Origin: Sulfurovum lithotrophicum
GTDB taxonomy: Bacteria; Campylobacterota; Campylobacteria; Campylobacterales; Sulfurovaceae
Direction: 5' to 3'
NCBI RefSeq assembly: GCF_000987835.1
Contig: NZ_CP011308.1
Span: 930,001 to 994,000, forward strand
Length of the DNA stretch: 64,000 nucleotides
The position numbers were made by a program, and so were the translations under genes. How positions within the stretch are numbered: the stretch's first letter is position 1; every line of letters starts with the position of its first letter. A model generated the notes under the pieces. The model was given only the letters and a program-made list of their open reading frames with translations, was not told the DNA's origin and ran no database searches. Shown here one piece after another: positions 14,226 through 21,137 of this stretch.

Positions 14226-14687
14226 ATGCAACTATGTTACTGTAAAAGTGGATTGGAATTTTCAAAATGCTGCGAGCCCATCCTGCGTGTATTCGAACCT
14301 GCTCCCACTGCACTGGCGCTCATGCGTTCACGCTACTCCGCCTATTGTCTGGGTGACGTCAACTACCTGCAGGCGACCACGCATGACCATACCTGGAGCG
14401 ATGAAGAGCTCAAGTTCATACAGGACTGGGCGGACAACAGCCACTGGCAGCATCTTGAGATCGTTGATCATGACGAAGATACGGTAGAGTTTAAAGCCTA
14501 TTATATCTACGACGGTGTGCAGCACATGCACCATGAAAAGTCTGCATTTATGAAGGTCAACGATATGTGGAAATATGTGGATGGCGATATTTACGAGGAC
14601 AAAGTGGACTTTAAGCGTAATGAAGTCTGCATCTGTGGCAGCGGTAAGAAGTATAAACGCTGCTGTGCGCAAAAGCTTAAATCCTGA
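14226..14687 (+). CDS. ychJ: YchJ-like protein with two SEC-C zinc motifs
   Basis: 153 residues of the UPF0225/YchJ type. Cysteine clusters at both ends (CYCKSGLEFSKCC near 4-16 and CICGSGKKYKRCC near 135-147) are SEC-C-type zinc knuckles, and the middle has the RSRYSAY and YLQATTHD segments of an NTF2-like fold. Molecular function of the family is not established to my knowledge. It begins 8 bp after hemL and is likely transcribed with it. Confidence 0.85.
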   Translation: MQLCYCKSGLEFSKCCEPILRVFEPAPTALALMRSRYSAYCLGDVNYLQATTHDHTWSDEELKFIQDWADNSHWQHLEIVDHDEDTVEFKAYYIYDGVQHMHHEKSAFMKVNDMWKYVDGDIYEDKVDFKRNEVCICGSGKKYKRCCAQKLKS

Positions 14688-14800
14688 TTTCTGTATTATA
14701 GCAGATCAGGTTCTCGCTGAATATCCCAAGCTCTAAGCTGCCCCTTCTCAACCTCCTGTTTTATTCTAAAATAATACATTACATACAAATCTAAAAAAAT

Positions 14801-14817
14801 TTGGCACACTTTTGGCA
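14801..14817 (+). promoter_or_regulatory. Candidate sigma-54 promoter
   Basis: TTGGCACACTTTTGGCA matches the sigma-54 consensus YTGGCACGN4TTGCW at nearly all positions, with the GG at 14803-14804 and the GC at 14815-14816 separated by exactly 10 nt. It points at the secreted 219-aa gene, whose ATG is 50 nt further on behind GGGAGG. A TATAAT at 14829-14834 could instead serve sigma-70. RpoN in Campylobacterota mainly controls middle/late flagellar genes, so a link to surface structures is possible. Confidence 0.55.
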
Positions 14818-14866
14818 CAATAATTTTGTATAATTTGAAAGTACCGATTTTAAGTGGGAGGTTAGC

Positions 14867-15526
14867 ATGAAGAAAAGCTTGCTGTTACTTCTAATGTTTG
14901 TAAGCGTAAATATATATGCAGAAAACTGGAAGCATTTTGGACGTTCAAATCCTTCGCCCGAAGCATATGAACTTAAAAAGGGTGTTGCGTATATGGAGAT
15001 GCGTCTCTACGAGGTGGACAAGAGTTATCACAAGGTTGTCAAGAAAGGTTACAAGGTCATTTGGAAGGCCTATCACAAACCGCTAAAAAGTTTTGATAAA
15101 CAAGTGGTTAGAAAATTCAAGTCTGCCGCCCCAAACCTCTCTGCCGGGACAGACCTTGTAAAATACAGTATAGCATACAGGCTGGATGGTTCGGACAAAC
15201 ATTATTTCATTGCCAATGTATTTTACATTGATGTCAATGGAAAGATATGGCGAATGAATACCAAAAAAGACTTCCTGTCATATATCCTCCCCATCGACAA
15301 CAGTGCTGACCTTTCCGAGGTCCTGTGGCTGAAATCATACTATGGACTAAAAAAATATCGTAAGGTCCCGGGAGGGTACGAGGTAATAGATGTAGAGAGT
15401 ATTAATTTCGAAACAGATAAAAAGAAGTGCGGTGAATACACTTACAGAATTTTGATGGACAGAAACGGTCATATCAAAAAGAAGGTTCTTGTAAATTCAA
15501 AACATACACCATGTGCAGTAATATAA
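14867..15526 (+). CDS. Secreted protein of unknown function
   Basis: 219 residues with a signal peptide (about 1-18). The mature part is rich in Lys, Tyr and beta-type alternation, with a surface-adhesion-like look around DKHYFIANVFYIDVNGKIWRM, and two cysteines near the C-terminus. I do not recognise a family. It is the first gene after the sigma-54-like promoter. The gap to the next gene is about 108 bp, so it may or may not share a transcript with the VWA cassette. Confidence 0.7.
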   Translation: MKKSLLLLLMFVSVNIYAENWKHFGRSNPSPEAYELKKGVAYMEMRLYEVDKSYHKVVKKGYKVIWKAYHKPLKSFDKQVVRKFKSAAPNLSAGTDLVKYSIAYRLDGSDKHYFIANVFYIDVNGKIWRMNTKKDFLSYILPIDNSADLSEVLWLKSYYGLKKYRKVPGGYEVIDVESINFETDKKKCGEYTYRILMDRNGHIKKKVLVNSKHTPCAVI

Positions 15527-15634
15527 AAAAAGGAGAGAAAAAGAAATTAAAGATCTTGGGAATAGTGATAGTAATGATTCAGGCAGTACCAACTGTCTGT
15601 TTCCTGTATAAATGAGAGGAAGGAATATTATAAA

Positions 15635-16177
15635 ATGATACAAAAAATATTATGGCGGTATACTGTAAATATTCATAGAAGTTTATTATTGTTTGTTTTT
15701 ATATTGGCAATAAGTGAAATGCTTATAGGCAGTGAAAATAATCCCATTGAAGAACCTGATGCTTTTATTGTTAAAGTCGAGAAAAATCCTGCAATTTCCC
15801 GAGGAAAAATCGCTTTACTACAGGGAACTGCATCACCGGAAGGTACCTTATTCAAAGTACCCAGTCTGTCAATAGATCAGAAAGTAATGGTTCTTCTTTT
15901 AAGTAATGATCCAGCTGTTCCCGTCAATATGGAACTTCGCAAGTATCATTGGACGGCTCCCAGAAGGAAAGGTTCGACTAATAAAAAAGGAGAATACGTT
16001 GAATACCTCAGAACACAAGGTGACCTTTTTATCAAAGTATTTACATTGAAAGGTGAGCAGCCTTATCGTTTGGTCATATGGGTAGATAAACATACTCCAC
16101 CTCCAATGTCACCAGTTCTAATTCCCAGAGATAGTAAACATCCAATAAAAACACAAAATTTAAGGAGTGTAAAATGA
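15635..16177 (+). CDS. Secreted or anchored protein of unknown function (VWA cassette gene 1)
   Basis: 180 residues. A hydrophobic segment at about 15-32 acts as signal or anchor; the start follows GAGGAAGG. The mature part predicts as beta strands (GKIALLQGTASP, KVMVLLLSN, QGDLFIKVF, PYRLVIWVDK) ending in a Pro-rich tail. No recognised family. It overlaps the next gene at ATGATG, so translation is coupled. Base composition is visibly more AT-rich than hemL to the left, suggesting transfer. Confidence 0.65.
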   Translation: MIQKILWRYTVNIHRSLLLFVFILAISEMLIGSENNPIEEPDAFIVKVEKNPAISRGKIALLQGTASPEGTLFKVPSLSIDQKVMVLLLSNDPAVPVNMELRKYHWTAPRRKGSTNKKGEYVEYLRTQGDLFIKVFTLKGEQPYRLVIWVDKHTPPPMSPVLIPRDSKHPIKTQNLRSVK

Positions 16178-16830
16178 TGAAATCAATCAATAGCATTTTT
16201 TTTAAAAATTTTACATATGCAAAAATAATAAAATTTCTTTTAATCATATTACCTGTATTTGCAAGTGGTGGGATACAGGATGTACTAAAATTACAGGGTT
16301 CATTTCCTGATATTGGAAAAATTAATGAATTTATCCAAAAAGGTGATAATTTTAAAAAAACGGCACCCTTGGATTCTCCTAGCGATGAAGATGCGCAACA
16401 TAACTATAATCCTCCAGGGATGCCTACAATGCCCATTGCATGTGGAAATATGAAAAACAGTAATTGTGGAAGCTGCTATAAAAATGCCTATGAAAAAGTT
16501 AATGATTTACGCCGATACTTTGAACAACTACGTGCACTCTATGTGGAAACCGATGAATTTACAAAAGCCAGTGTTGCATTTGGCGACAGTATTGCCGGGT
16601 CTGTCGGAGTCGGTGGATTGCAATGGATACACGATCGAGAAAAAATTCAAAACTCTTTTAAACAATTTAAAAAAGCCTATAAAAAAAAATACAATGAATT
16701 ACTGGGCAGGCTTGAACAGGTGCTGAAAGAGATCGCGCAGTGTGAGGAACAGTACTTTGGCAATAAAGACTGGTATAGCCGGTACGGGTTTATGTTTTTA
16801 AACTTTATGGCATTGCATTACGCCCGTTAA
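16174..16830 (+). CDS. Secreted helical protein with Cys cluster (VWA cassette gene 2)
   Basis: 218 residues. A signal peptide (about 17-32) is followed by a Pro-rich linker, a Cys group (PIACGNMKNSNCGSCY, about 89-104) and a long helical, Lys/Glu/Gln-rich coiled-coil region (about 105-200) interrupted by a Gly-rich SIAGSVGVGG stretch. No family recognised. It starts 4 nt inside the previous gene and ends 12 bp before the VWA gene, so it belongs to the same operon. Confidence 0.65.
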   Translation: MMKSINSIFFKNFTYAKIIKFLLIILPVFASGGIQDVLKLQGSFPDIGKINEFIQKGDNFKKTAPLDSPSDEDAQHNYNPPGMPTMPIACGNMKNSNCGSCYKNAYEKVNDLRRYFEQLRALYVETDEFTKASVAFGDSIAGSVGVGGLQWIHDREKIQNSFKQFKKAYKKKYNELLGRLEQVLKEIAQCEEQYFGNKDWYSRYGFMFLNFMALHYAR

Positions 16831-16842
16831 AGTAGTTTTACA

Positions 16843-19548
16843 ATGAACTATTTCCGATACATTCTAATATTACTGGGGTTTCTCTTTGTGTCAGTTACCG
16901 TGTCGGCTCAAGTACCACGGACCGCTATAATATTTGATGCTTCAGGAAGTATGTGGGGAAAGATCGGGAACAAAACCAAAATTGAAATTGCAAAAAATGC
17001 ACTTAGAGATGTAATAGAACATTGGGATCCCAATAGACCATTAGGGTTGACAATTTATGGTCATCGCAAAAAAGCCGACTGCAGCGATATCCAGACAGTT
17101 TTCCCTCTGGGCAGGATAGATAAAGAAAAAATACTTCATATTGTCAGTAATATCAGACCTAAAGGCAAAACACCCATTAGCCGTTCTCTGAAAAAAGTTG
17201 CTGAAGAGTTGGGCTATTTGACACATAGAGTTACACTTATCTTGATCAGTGACGGCAAGGAAACATGTGACAGTGATTCTCTGGATTCTATACGCAAACT
17301 TAAAGAACAGGGCTTGGGTATAGTAGTGCATGTCATAGGATTTGATGTAGATAAAGAGACTTCTGAACAATTAAAATCCATTGCCAAAGTAACAGGAGGC
17401 AGTTATACACCTGCTAAAAATGCAACTGCGCTTACTCAGGCTTTTAGAACAGTTGCCAAAGAGATACAAAAAGTAAAACCTCCTTCGCCTCCTGCAAAGA
17501 ATTTAAAAATCACGGCAAGCGAAACACGAGAAAGCTCCTGGATACAGGCACTGCATATTATTTCTCCCATAGACTCCAATATTTCAAAAACAGAAACTAC
17601 AAGCTGTATCTCTTATCCTAACCAGGCGTGCGGCCTCAAACTTCCTGAAGGTCGCTATAAATTAAGTACTGATTATAATCGCTATCACAAAGAAAAAGAA
17701 ATTGAAGTTTATGAAAACAATATAACTGCTGTAAATGTAGTAACCGGAGAAACAGGCAAAGTTTCCATATCTGCACGAGAAGCTCAGAAAACTGCCAATA
17801 TTCGTTTACATTACGGTATCTACTCTGCCAATGACAGTACATTGATCGTTAGTGGTGACACAACTGAAAAAGATGCAATTATAGAGAGACTTCCTGTTGG
17901 AAAATATCTTATCCGTTACAACCATTTTACTCTCAGTGGAGAGGTTCCATTTGACGTACTTAGTGGCAAAGTAACGCAACTTGATCTGATTACCGGAAAA
18001 ACCGGCATAGTATCAATCACTGCAAGCGAAACCAAAAATACCGCGTGGGTCAATGCACACCATACTTTCCGATCCCTGAAAAGAAAAAAAGATATTGTTA
18101 TGGAATGTGATTCTGAAAAAACAACCGCTTGCAAAGTACGTTTACCTATTGGAATTTACAGCGTTACTACAAGATACAAGGACCTATCAGTCGATACCAT
18201 AATAGAAGTATCCTATGGTAAAAAACACATAAAAAACATTGTTTTAAAACCGACTGGGATTATCGAAATTTCAGCGAAAGAAGACATTAACAGTCAACCG
18301 ATCCATGCTGCTTATGTGATTCGAAAAGCAGATAATAATAACACAGTGCTTGCAAGCGGACATACACCTGCAACTGTTGAACTTTTTGCAGGCAGATATA
18401 TACTGATAACCGAGTACTGTACCTATAGACAGCAACTTACCTTTGTGATCAAAGCTGCAAAAAAACTTCCAATTGAAATTTACACAGGAAAGACAGGGTA
18501 TCTCAGGCTCTCTTCATCTTTACATACAAACAGTAAAGCACTCAAAGCAGCTTATACGTTATATGATGAAAATAAAACAAAAATACTCTCACACCCTTCT
18601 TCTTGTGAAACAACACAAAACAATAAAACACTTTGGCAGCTTCCTATAGGAAAATATACGATCAAGGCTTACTATCCTCCATACGAACAAACAAAGCATG
18701 TTCAAATTACACAGGGGAAAACCGTCGATCTGCATTTTGTGATGGATCCTATCGGGACAGTAAAAATCAGTGCAGAAGAAGAGAACAGTCAAAGAAATAT
18801 ACAGGTAGATCACTCTATTTTTCGTGTGATCAACAATGAGATTAATGAAAGCAATGTATCTTATACCTGCCATACTGAAGGTATGTATAGTTGTGATATA
18901 AATCTCTCTGTGGGAAGATACCTGCTAATTTCTTCTTACAACCATTTTACAAAACATACATATTTTGACATTCATGAAAATGAAATACTTCCTTTACATA
19001 TTGTTATGGGAGGTACTGGGAAGGTTAATATAACTGCTTACGAAATGTTGGGCGGCAACCCCATAAAGTCTGTAACTCACTATATTATGCAAAAGGAGGG
19101 TAATGTGAGTAAAAATATCACTAGTTGCTATAAAGACCTTCATTGTGTAAGACGTCTGCCTGTTGGAAAATACAGTGTCCGCAGCGAATACAATATATTA
19201 GAGAAAACTACTCCTTTTACCATAGAAGCTGCTAAAACAACTGGATTAGATGTCATTTTGGGAGCAGTAGCTCCAGTGAGAATCCGGGTGACAATTATGC
19301 CTACAAAAGATAAAGTCTCTGCAAACCATACCATTTATCATATTGATAACAGAAACCATCGTAAGGAGATTACAGAAATGTGCTGGTATGATAAAAAATC
19401 ACAAAGTTGTACTATCAATTTGCCTATTGGTACCTATCTTCTGCAATCAACTTACAAGGGGATAAAAAAAGAAACACTTTTTGAAGTAAAAAACATAGAT
19501 GAGAATCTTGTAAATGTCGTGCTGGATCTCGACTTGCCCAAAGAATAA
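16843..19548 (+). CDS. Secreted VWA-domain protein with eight tandem beta repeats
   Basis: 901 residues. Signal peptide about 1-22, then a von Willebrand factor A domain (about 25-215) with an intact MIDAS: Asp32-Ser34-Ser36 in DASGSM, the Thr in GKTPIS and Asp in ISDGKE. After a Pro-rich linker come eight repeats of about 80-90 residues. Each opens with a strand of the type G-K-V-S-I-S-A and contains L-P-x-G-x-Y; five of them carry a Cys pair just before that motif (C-x5-8-C-x3-L). The repeats resemble PEGA or carboxypeptidase-regulatory beta sandwiches. A periplasmic or surface role in protein binding is inferred; partners are probably the neighbouring secreted proteins. Confidence 0.8.
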   Translation: MNYFRYILILLGFLFVSVTVSAQVPRTAIIFDASGSMWGKIGNKTKIEIAKNALRDVIEHWDPNRPLGLTIYGHRKKADCSDIQTVFPLGRIDKEKILHIVSNIRPKGKTPISRSLKKVAEELGYLTHRVTLILISDGKETCDSDSLDSIRKLKEQGLGIVVHVIGFDVDKETSEQLKSIAKVTGGSYTPAKNATALTQAFRTVAKEIQKVKPPSPPAKNLKITASETRESSWIQALHIISPIDSNISKTETTSCISYPNQACGLKLPEGRYKLSTDYNRYHKEKEIEVYENNITAVNVVTGETGKVSISAREAQKTANIRLHYGIYSANDSTLIVSGDTTEKDAIIERLPVGKYLIRYNHFTLSGEVPFDVLSGKVTQLDLITGKTGIVSITASETKNTAWVNAHHTFRSLKRKKDIVMECDSEKTTACKVRLPIGIYSVTTRYKDLSVDTIIEVSYGKKHIKNIVLKPTGIIEISAKEDINSQPIHAAYVIRKADNNNTVLASGHTPATVELFAGRYILITEYCTYRQQLTFVIKAAKKLPIEIYTGKTGYLRLSSSLHTNSKALKAAYTLYDENKTKILSHPSSCETTQNNKTLWQLPIGKYTIKAYYPPYEQTKHVQITQGKTVDLHFVMDPIGTVKISAEEENSQRNIQVDHSIFRVINNEINESNVSYTCHTEGMYSCDINLSVGRYLLISSYNHFTKHTYFDIHENEILPLHIVMGGTGKVNITAYEMLGGNPIKSVTHYIMQKEGNVSKNITSCYKDLHCVRRLPVGKYSVRSEYNILEKTTPFTIEAAKTTGLDVILGAVAPVRIRVTIMPTKDKVSANHTIYHIDNRNHRKEITEMCWYDKKSQSCTINLPIGTYLLQSTYKGIKKETLFEVKNIDENLVNVVLDLDLPKE

Positions 19549-19556
19549 AAAGGAAT

Positions 19557-20078
19557 ATGAAAATGAAGAAATCAGTAATAATAACAGCAATTTTGCTTGG
19601 AATAACTATTTCAGGTTGCGGTGCATCAGGAGATGCGTCAAACAGTAATGCCATAGCCAAAGAAGATGTCTGTACCTTACTGACAACGGCAGAGGTCTCA
19701 AACTTGGTAGGAGAAGCGGTCAATGAGGGAAAGCGTGATACAAAACATACCTATCCAAATGCTTCAGTCTGTACCTGGACATCGGTCAGTCACAATATGC
19801 CTCTTCTGACCCTGACCTACTATCTGCATACTTCTGCGTATGCCCTTGACCACTATGCACTACCCGGCAGTCAAATAAAAAAACTCAATGGAACATCCAA
19901 TGAAGCCATTGCTGTTCTGGGAGTGAACAAAAAACTGTCCGAGGTTATAGCCAGAAGTGGTAACAATGCGGTTTTGCTTATGTCACTTTCTTTGGAAAGT
20001 AAAGAAGGAAGCAAGAACTGGAATAATGAGATCAAGTTAACAGACCTTGCAGCGCAGAGAGCTGAAAAAAAGAAGTAG
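19557..20078 (+). CDS. Lipoprotein, DUF3558-like (VWA cassette gene 4)
   Basis: 173 residues. A lipobox ISGCG near residues 18-22 marks a lipoprotein. The mature domain begins with DVCTLLTTAEVSNLVG and contains a second Cys in ASVCTWT, a pattern like DUF3558/HmuY-independent actinobacterial lipoproteins, where the two cysteines form a disulfide. Function unknown. It follows the VWA gene by 8 bp and closes the operon; a 92-aa gene converges on it. Confidence 0.65.
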   Translation: MKMKKSVIITAILLGITISGCGASGDASNSNAIAKEDVCTLLTTAEVSNLVGEAVNEGKRDTKHTYPNASVCTWTSVSHNMPLLTLTYYLHTSAYALDHYALPGSQIKKLNGTSNEAIAVLGVNKKLSEVIARSGNNAVLLMSLSLESKEGSKNWNNEIKLTDLAAQRAEKKK

Positions 20079-20090
20079 GAGACCATAAAA

Positions 20091-20369
20091 TCATTCTTTT
20101 AAAAATGCATCGATTTTTTTTTGTAGGCAGTCTTCGTACTCTTTTGTATAAAAGTGTTTTGCCCTCATATAGCTTCTGTAGCTTGTTTTGAAGCAGGTAT
20201 TATGAAAGAGTTCGATGAGGTCACAATGGTCTTGCTTTCGTGCTCGGCATGTGTTTAATTGTTGTGTTTCTATTTGATGGCTCATTTTGCTGTCGGATTC
20301 CAGGTTATAGATGTATGAGACAAAAAAAATAATACCGACAATGACCACTGCTTCTTTATTCCACTTCAT
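20091..20369 (-). CDS. Small single-pass membrane protein of unknown function
   Basis: 92 residues: one hydrophobic helix at about 7-21, then a charged extracytoplasmic tail with four cysteines (CRARKQDHC, NTCFKT, EDCLQK) that could form two disulfides. No family recognised. No Shine-Dalgarno is seen; TATACT lies six nt before the ATG, so the mRNA may be leaderless. Convergent with the lipoprotein gene of the VWA cassette. Confidence 0.55.
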   Translation of the reverse strand: MKWNKEAVVIVGIIFFVSYIYNLESDSKMSHQIETQQLNTCRARKQDHCDLIELFHNTCFKTSYRSYMRAKHFYTKEYEDCLQKKIDAFLKE

Positions 20370-20375
20370 AAATAC

Positions 20376-20381
20376 AGTATA
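20376..20381 (-). promoter_or_regulatory. -10 box of the 92-aa gene, probably leaderless
   Basis: TATACT on the minus strand ends 6 nt before the ATG at 20369. Transcription would start at or within a base or two of the start codon, and there is no ribosome binding site. Confidence 0.4.
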
Positions 20382-20477
20382 TCAAAACATCTTTGAACCC
20401 GGATTATGAAGTAAAAGATGATTTATCTATCAATATAGTAAGCTGCCAAATAGCGAAGCCACTGTATTGAAAAACAG

Positions 20478-21137
20478 TTAAACCCTGTCCGGTCTCTGGT
20501 CGTCAGGAAGTTTGGAGAGATCGGCTTCGTCGAACATTTCCACTTTTGGAATGACTATGGCGATAAGCGTCACTATGATACCGAAGATCAGCACCACAAG
20601 ATGTTCATGTCCCGGGAAAAGTTTGGGGAGGGTGAGTTTACCTGCGCTTGTTCCCATCAACGGTTTGAAGAAGTCATCGTAATAGAGGGTGAAAACCAAG
20701 CCGCCGAGTAGTCCGCCGATAGCGCCTATAAGAACATCGATACGTCCTTCAGCGATGGAGACAGGTCCTGTTCCCGGGCATTTTCCGAAAATTGCCATAG
20801 ATATACCGAAGAGTGTACCACCTATGATCAGCCCCTGCCAGATGATGGGTTTTACATGGTAGTGTGCCCATCCCGCTTCTATCATGAAATAGAGTGCAAT
20901 ACTGGTAAGGCCCACGGCAAGAAAGAGCATTTTAGGGACAATGGTGTCCTTCAGCATGGCAAATCCGGCGATCTTTTCGAATTTGTCGACACGGGTATAC
21001 TGGATGATACCACCGAATATTACGCCGATCAGAAAGACCAGTGCAAGAGAACCGTGCCCCTGATGGATCACGTTTTCGAACATTTGTGCCAAGCGTGAAA
21101 AAAAGTCATCACCGGCAGTTTTAACTACGATATCCAT
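20478..21137 (-). CDS. YeeE/YedE-family transporter half (sulfur compound uptake)
   Basis: 219 residues with about five hydrophobic helices. The family motif appears as GKCPGTGPVSIAEG near residues 98-111, with a conserved Cys. YeeE/YedE proteins (TsuA, PmpA/B) move thiosulfate or other sulfur species; a single protein in some species is split in two halves here. The ATG sits on the stop of the 167-aa partner (1-nt overlap), so both halves are made together and probably form one transporter. Confidence 0.8.
   Translation of the reverse strand: MDIVVKTAGDDFFSRLAQMFENVIHQGHGSLALVFLIGVIFGGIIQYTRVDKFEKIAGFAMLKDTIVPKMLFLAVGLTSIALYFMIEAGWAHYHVKPIIWQGLIIGGTLFGISMAIFGKCPGTGPVSIAEGRIDVLIGAIGGLLGGLVFTLYYDDFFKPLMGTSAGKLTLPKLFPGHEHLVVLIFGIIVTLIAIVIPKVEMFDEADLSKLPDDQRPDRV

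Follow-up and report, generated by a model that had tools for sequence, protein, structure and literature searches.

The window analysed here, a stretch of 64,000 nucleotides of DNA from the vent bacterium Sulfurovum lithotrophicum, contains four closely packed genes on the forward strand. The first, g1 (15635–16177), encodes a small exported protein of 180 aa with a predicted beta domain, and g2 (16174–16830) encodes an exported, probably helical-hairpin protein of 218 aa with cysteines at positions 90, 98, 101 and 190; these are the two halves of a conserved pair. They are followed by a gene (16843–19548) for a 901 aa VWA-repeat protein, made up of a signal peptide, a VWA domain at approximately residues 26–210 and eight beta-sandwich repeats of about 84 aa, and by a gene (19557–20078) for a 173 aa lipoprotein with weak similarity to DUF3558 and the lipobox ISGC. 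The g1 stop and g2 start codons overlap in ATGA, and gaps of 12 bp and 8 bp precede the VWA and lipoprotein genes, respectively. An earlier reading made without database searches (the sequence-only reading) had placed the four open reading frames, the overlap and both gaps in the same way. Its claim that every product carries a signal peptide or an anchor also held, as a single N-terminal hydrophobic segment was found in each of the four products on the basis of hydrophobicity, and the fourth includes the lipobox.

The GC content of g1 and g2 (0.355 each) and of the VWA gene (0.373) lies at the 7th to 10th percentile of the genes in this genome (0.438 overall in a 280-kb sample). These three genes are AT-rich, short of extreme. 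The block had been described as more AT-rich than hemL before it and the sulfur-transport genes after it. The GC content of the lipoprotein gene (0.421) is close to normal, and the AT-rich block begins earlier than g1, with a gene for a secreted protein adjoining the module (g0, 14867–15526, forward strand). A terminator-like site is located between g0 and g1 (15580–15599). Promoter-like sites were found at no more than the level expected by chance, and nothing in Rfam matched between 12 and 24 kb.

The VWA protein matched two Pfam models, VWA_2 (3.1e-8) and CarboxypepD_reg (8.4e-11). The statement that only the VWA domain is recognisable was correct for g1 and g2, for which no model was found, but not for the VWA protein itself, as the CarboxypepD_reg match is above the Pfam cut-off. 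The MIDAS (DASGS, T110 and D137) had been reported as intact, and its residues are complete, with D32, S34, S36, T110 and D137 invariant across 25 VWA homologues. Seven or eight of the repeats of about 84 aa were detected by sequence, five of them including a C-x(5–8)-C pair. An AlphaFold2 model consisted of a string of beta-sandwiches headed by the VWA domain (mean pLDDT 76, with parts of repeats 6 and 8 at low confidence). The only hydrophobic segment is N-terminal, the signal sequence (SVTVSAQV) does not include a lipobox cysteine and the protein ends in LDLDLPKE. When the whole length of this flexible multidomain model was searched using Foldseek, PitA and SpaC were among the best matches (E 4e-17 to 6e-15, TM 0.17–0.20), and a search of viral structures returned only generic VWA and repeat matches. 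The head alone matched Mfa5, integrin I domains, BatB and PilB (VIA-align, VIA Z 19–22).

The VWA protein belongs to a known, broad family with at least 493 confirmed relatives, and in the family tree it is found on a long branch among the Sulfurovaceae. Members such as WP_157729086.1 in Pseudosulfitobacter and those at loci L033–L038 in Sulfurovaceae have in common with it a signal peptide, the MIDAS motif DxSGSMWG, cysteines at positions 80 and 142 and a tandem beta-sandwich tail. The immediate neighbours of the VWA gene are clade-specific, with distinct sets in Sulfurovaceae, Flavobacteriia and alphaproteobacteria, and g1-g2 was found next to it only in the window and in one other genome (G914, see below). 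Neither g1 nor g2 was detected in 80 VWA neighbourhoods, and g2 had no match in 30 genomes containing VWA relatives. In three Sulfurovaceae, a gene for an unnamed secreted protein of 326–370 aa begins 12–15 bp after the VWA gene (L033 9206–10306, L034 9250–10362 and L035 2210–3190). The L033 and L034 copies of this protein had no Pfam match, and it is a candidate partner of the VWA protein in that Sulfurovaceae branch.

A search of 398 Pseudomonadota genomes identified a single relative of g2 (E=1.5e-21), and further relatives were found in a class sample (two) and in one order (twelve; 13 of 397 genomes including the first). In the order of G914, only G914 was recovered. No relative of g2 was found among 397 Campylobacterota genomes; an antisense match to murB in this set (L010) was dismissed as chance. 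In all 14 non-window loci, which are in Pseudomonadota, g2 is immediately preceded by a g1 homologue (15 of 15 with the window included), and in G914 the two are fused in a single open reading frame with a TM segment between them. A profile built from 12 non-window homologues matched the window g1 (E=1.2e-29), and the corresponding profile of non-window homologues matched the window g2 (E=1.1e-46). When two divergent loci were left out, the profiles still matched both of the genes found there (7.4e-12 and 1.4e-6 for g1; 1.5e-19 and 4.6e-7 for g2). The best explanation treats g1 and g2 as an obligate pair whose members are produced together. They are an unnamed pair of families spanning Campylobacterota and Pseudomonadota. 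No model in Pfam, NCBIfam, PHROGs or PADLOC matched the pair, with PHROGs yielding only weak, chance-level matches and PADLOC none. Searches of plasmids and viral contigs found neither protein, and phages yielded no match to g2.

A C-terminal TM helix is present in 13 of the 15 g1 members and absent from the copies in the window and in G1098, and this helix is a usual, not a strict, feature of the family. The first product had been described as an anchored beta protein; it does have the N-terminal hydrophobic segment but not the C-terminal helix typical of its relatives. The four cysteines of the window g2 are all retained in 13 of the 15 members. A single-sequence AlphaFold2 model of g2, which is weak overall (pLDDT 59), includes helices at residues 98–141 and 146–195 (pLDDT approximately 70–79). 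C98/C101 and C190 would meet at the base of this modelled hairpin, an arrangement consistent with disulfides. Foldseek searches with the same weak model found nothing at E≤0.001, and a search of the PDB by sequence found no credible relative of g1, g2 or the VWA protein.

In G914, the fused g1-g2 gene is adjacent to the only VWA gene in the genome and is divergently transcribed. In the family tree, that VWA protein is placed well apart from the window protein. The two are not closely related, and the linkage therefore appears to be independent. About 0.007 linkages would be expected by chance, an estimate based on 59 sampled Pseudomonadota genomes, in which there were 7 VWA copies, and on a g1-g2 neighbourhood of about 212 kb. 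This one recurrence supports, without proving, a functional tie between g1-g2 and the VWA protein. The G914 VWA gene is split into two overlapping frames (L117 3411–6238), due either to a sequencing error or to damage to the gene. No VWA gene was found near g1-g2 in 13 of the 14 other neighbourhoods. One genome with the pair (G517) has no VWA gene anywhere, and all three VWA genes of G1098 are on contigs other than the one carrying g1-g2. The absence of VWA from these neighbourhoods and from the whole of G517 indicates that g1-g2 can function where no VWA gene is linked to them.

Within the genus, the region from hemL-ychJ (SEC-C) to the sulfur-transport or atpI-like genes varies, its cargo differing from one Sulfurovum genome to the next. 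The insertion hotspot corresponds to 14687–20478 in the window, and the loci compared (L011, L012, L013, L020 and L029) included one empty site. In G025 (L020), only 17 bp separate the ychJ gene from the sulfur-transport genes. The cargo in G024 (L012) is a Sel1 gene, the lipoprotein gene and a Gly-zipper gene, and in G020 (L011) it is a Sel1 gene, an OmpA/DUF4892 gene and the lipoprotein gene. G252 (L029) contains a VanZ-like gene, g0, an OmpA/DUF4892 gene and the lipoprotein gene, while G015 (L013) contains katG, a gene for a DUF285 protein and hemL/ychJ fragments. An 18 aa remnant of the second sulfur-transport gene is present next to atpI in G020 (L011 5133–5186), which suggests that the sulfur-transport gene pair has been deleted there.

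In the window, g1, g2 and the VWA gene occupy the position of the OmpA/DUF4892 gene in G252, i.e. between g0 and the lipoprotein gene. A 53 bp stretch 5′ of g1 (15530–15582, forward strand) resembles the start of the OmpA gene in a local alignment to L011, though with the start codon lost. The alignment score was reached by 3 of 2000 shuffled sequences for L011 and by 30 of 2000 for L029. This resemblance is suggestive of a scar left by the 5′ end of a displaced OmpA/DUF4892 gene. A g0 homologue (52%) is found at the same locus in G252 (L029 8053–8730), and on present evidence g0 is a neighbour outside the module. It belongs to an unnamed family of secreted proteins, diverged tandem copies of which are found just upstream of a VWA gene in L033 (4004–6648).

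The lipoprotein gene is found at the same locus without g1, g2 or the VWA gene in three congeneric genomes (G020, G024 and G252). As it is retained at the locus in the absence of the module genes, the lipoprotein lies outside the unit, contrary to the proposal that it is a member of the system; it is a neighbour and part of an older local gene set. The sequence-only reading had named beforehand, as the contrary outcome, that the genes never co-occur elsewhere. For three of the four genes this outcome did not arise: the g1-g2 pair does recur, at the 14 other loci, and in G914 it is again linked to a VWA gene.

Among known systems, the Gram-positive pilus-tip adhesins RrgA, SpaC and PitA likewise have a MIDAS VWA head and beta-sandwich domains. 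The window protein differs in having cysteine pairs in its repeats and a Gram-negative host, and a sortase pilus was ruled out by the absence of both LPXTG and any sortase gene nearby. The Bdellovibrio MIDAS adhesins Bd0875 and Bd1483 are also exported MIDAS VWA proteins of a Gram-negative bacterium, and in Bd0875 the MIDAS residues are required for function (PMC11003981). However, Bd0875 and Bd1483 are L-shaped lipoproteins with a small beta domain and no repeat rod (PMC11003981). The window protein has an N-terminal VWA domain and a repeat tail and does not have a lipobox cysteine, and a lipoprotein of the Bdellovibrio type was ruled out. The VWA fold is also common to the Bat (aerotolerance) proteins. 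The Bat/MoxR system was ruled out because no gene between 12.9 and 25 kb encodes a MoxR AAA+ ATPase and the window VWA protein has no TM anchor. The view that no described system fits was borne out.

We propose that g1, g2 and the VWA gene (15635–19548) form a three-gene envelope module in which an exported MIDAS binding rod is served by a pair of helper proteins retained in the envelope, a reading to which we give about an even chance. The gene set, the conservation of the pair, the domain architecture and the swap by which the module replaced the OmpA/DUF4892 gene at the variable spot are established by the analysis, while metal and ligand binding, contact of the pair with the rod and the final location are inferred. 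In most members, the g1 beta domain would be tethered by its C-terminal TM helix at the outer face of the inner membrane, and g2 would be an exported helical hairpin with disulfides stapling its base (C98/C101 near C190). The VWA protein would be an exported rod, with a metal-binding, integrin-like head mounted on eight disulfide-bearing beta-sandwich repeats, and would most likely bind a ligand via the MIDAS metal either at the surface or across the periplasm. Export, disulfides and the MIDAS together suggest that binding is metal-dependent and takes place outside the cytoplasm. VWA folds are also known in intracellular, non-adhesive roles, and this was counted against the binding-rod reading. 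Also counted against it were the low TM-scores to pilus adhesins, the missing TM anchor of the window g1, and the absence of VWA from most g1-g2 neighbourhoods and from G517 and of g1 and g2 from the 80 VWA neighbourhoods. The g1-g2 proteins would hold, stabilise or deliver the rod, and its anchoring or assembly may depend on them.

A possible alternative, which we rate at appreciably less than an even chance, is that two independent units, g1-g2 and the VWA gene, became neighbours in an insertion hotspot, with the pair and the rod acting separately. Unrelated inserts at the same spot in other genomes are consistent with this, as are the 13 of 14 pairs with no VWA gene nearby, the lack of VWA in G517 and the separate contigs in G1098. 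It is less easily reconciled with the separate linkage to the sole VWA gene of G914 or with the tight packing in the window, where an ATGA overlap and then a gap of only 12 bp connect genes on the same strand.

The original proposal of a four-protein system including the lipoprotein now seems highly improbable. The lipoprotein gene, starting 8 bp past the VWA stop codon on the same strand, may be co-transcribed with the module at present, but its presence without the other genes in three genomes, in two of which (G020 and G252) it directly follows the OmpA/DUF4892 gene, and its GC content nearer the genome average argue against membership. Also highly improbable, in our assessment, is a role in maturation, in which the VWA protein would act on an envelope enzyme as a chaperone like BatA/BatB or NorD, with g1 in the part of BatD. 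In its favour, the head gives a VIA Z of 19.8 with BatB and with a Bacteroides aerotolerance VWA protein, and most g1 members are exported beta domains with a C-terminal TM helix, a topology that recalls BatD. Against this, the neighbouring genes do not include a MoxR ATPase, and the VWA protein has a long repeat rod and no TM anchor.

Under the three-gene module reading, what had been four unknown secreted genes becomes a testable unit, comprising a pair with no domain model, found from Campylobacterota to Pseudomonadota, and a linked integrin-like rod. More broadly, and only tentatively, g1-g2 may be a previously undescribed two-protein envelope device that serves, in certain lineages, to hold or deliver VWA-headed rods, and so a new mount for an integrin-like adhesin in the Gram-negative envelope. 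Assigning a role to g1-g2 would annotate two families together, and could reveal the means by which VWA binding proteins are mounted or controlled in Gram-negative bacteria.
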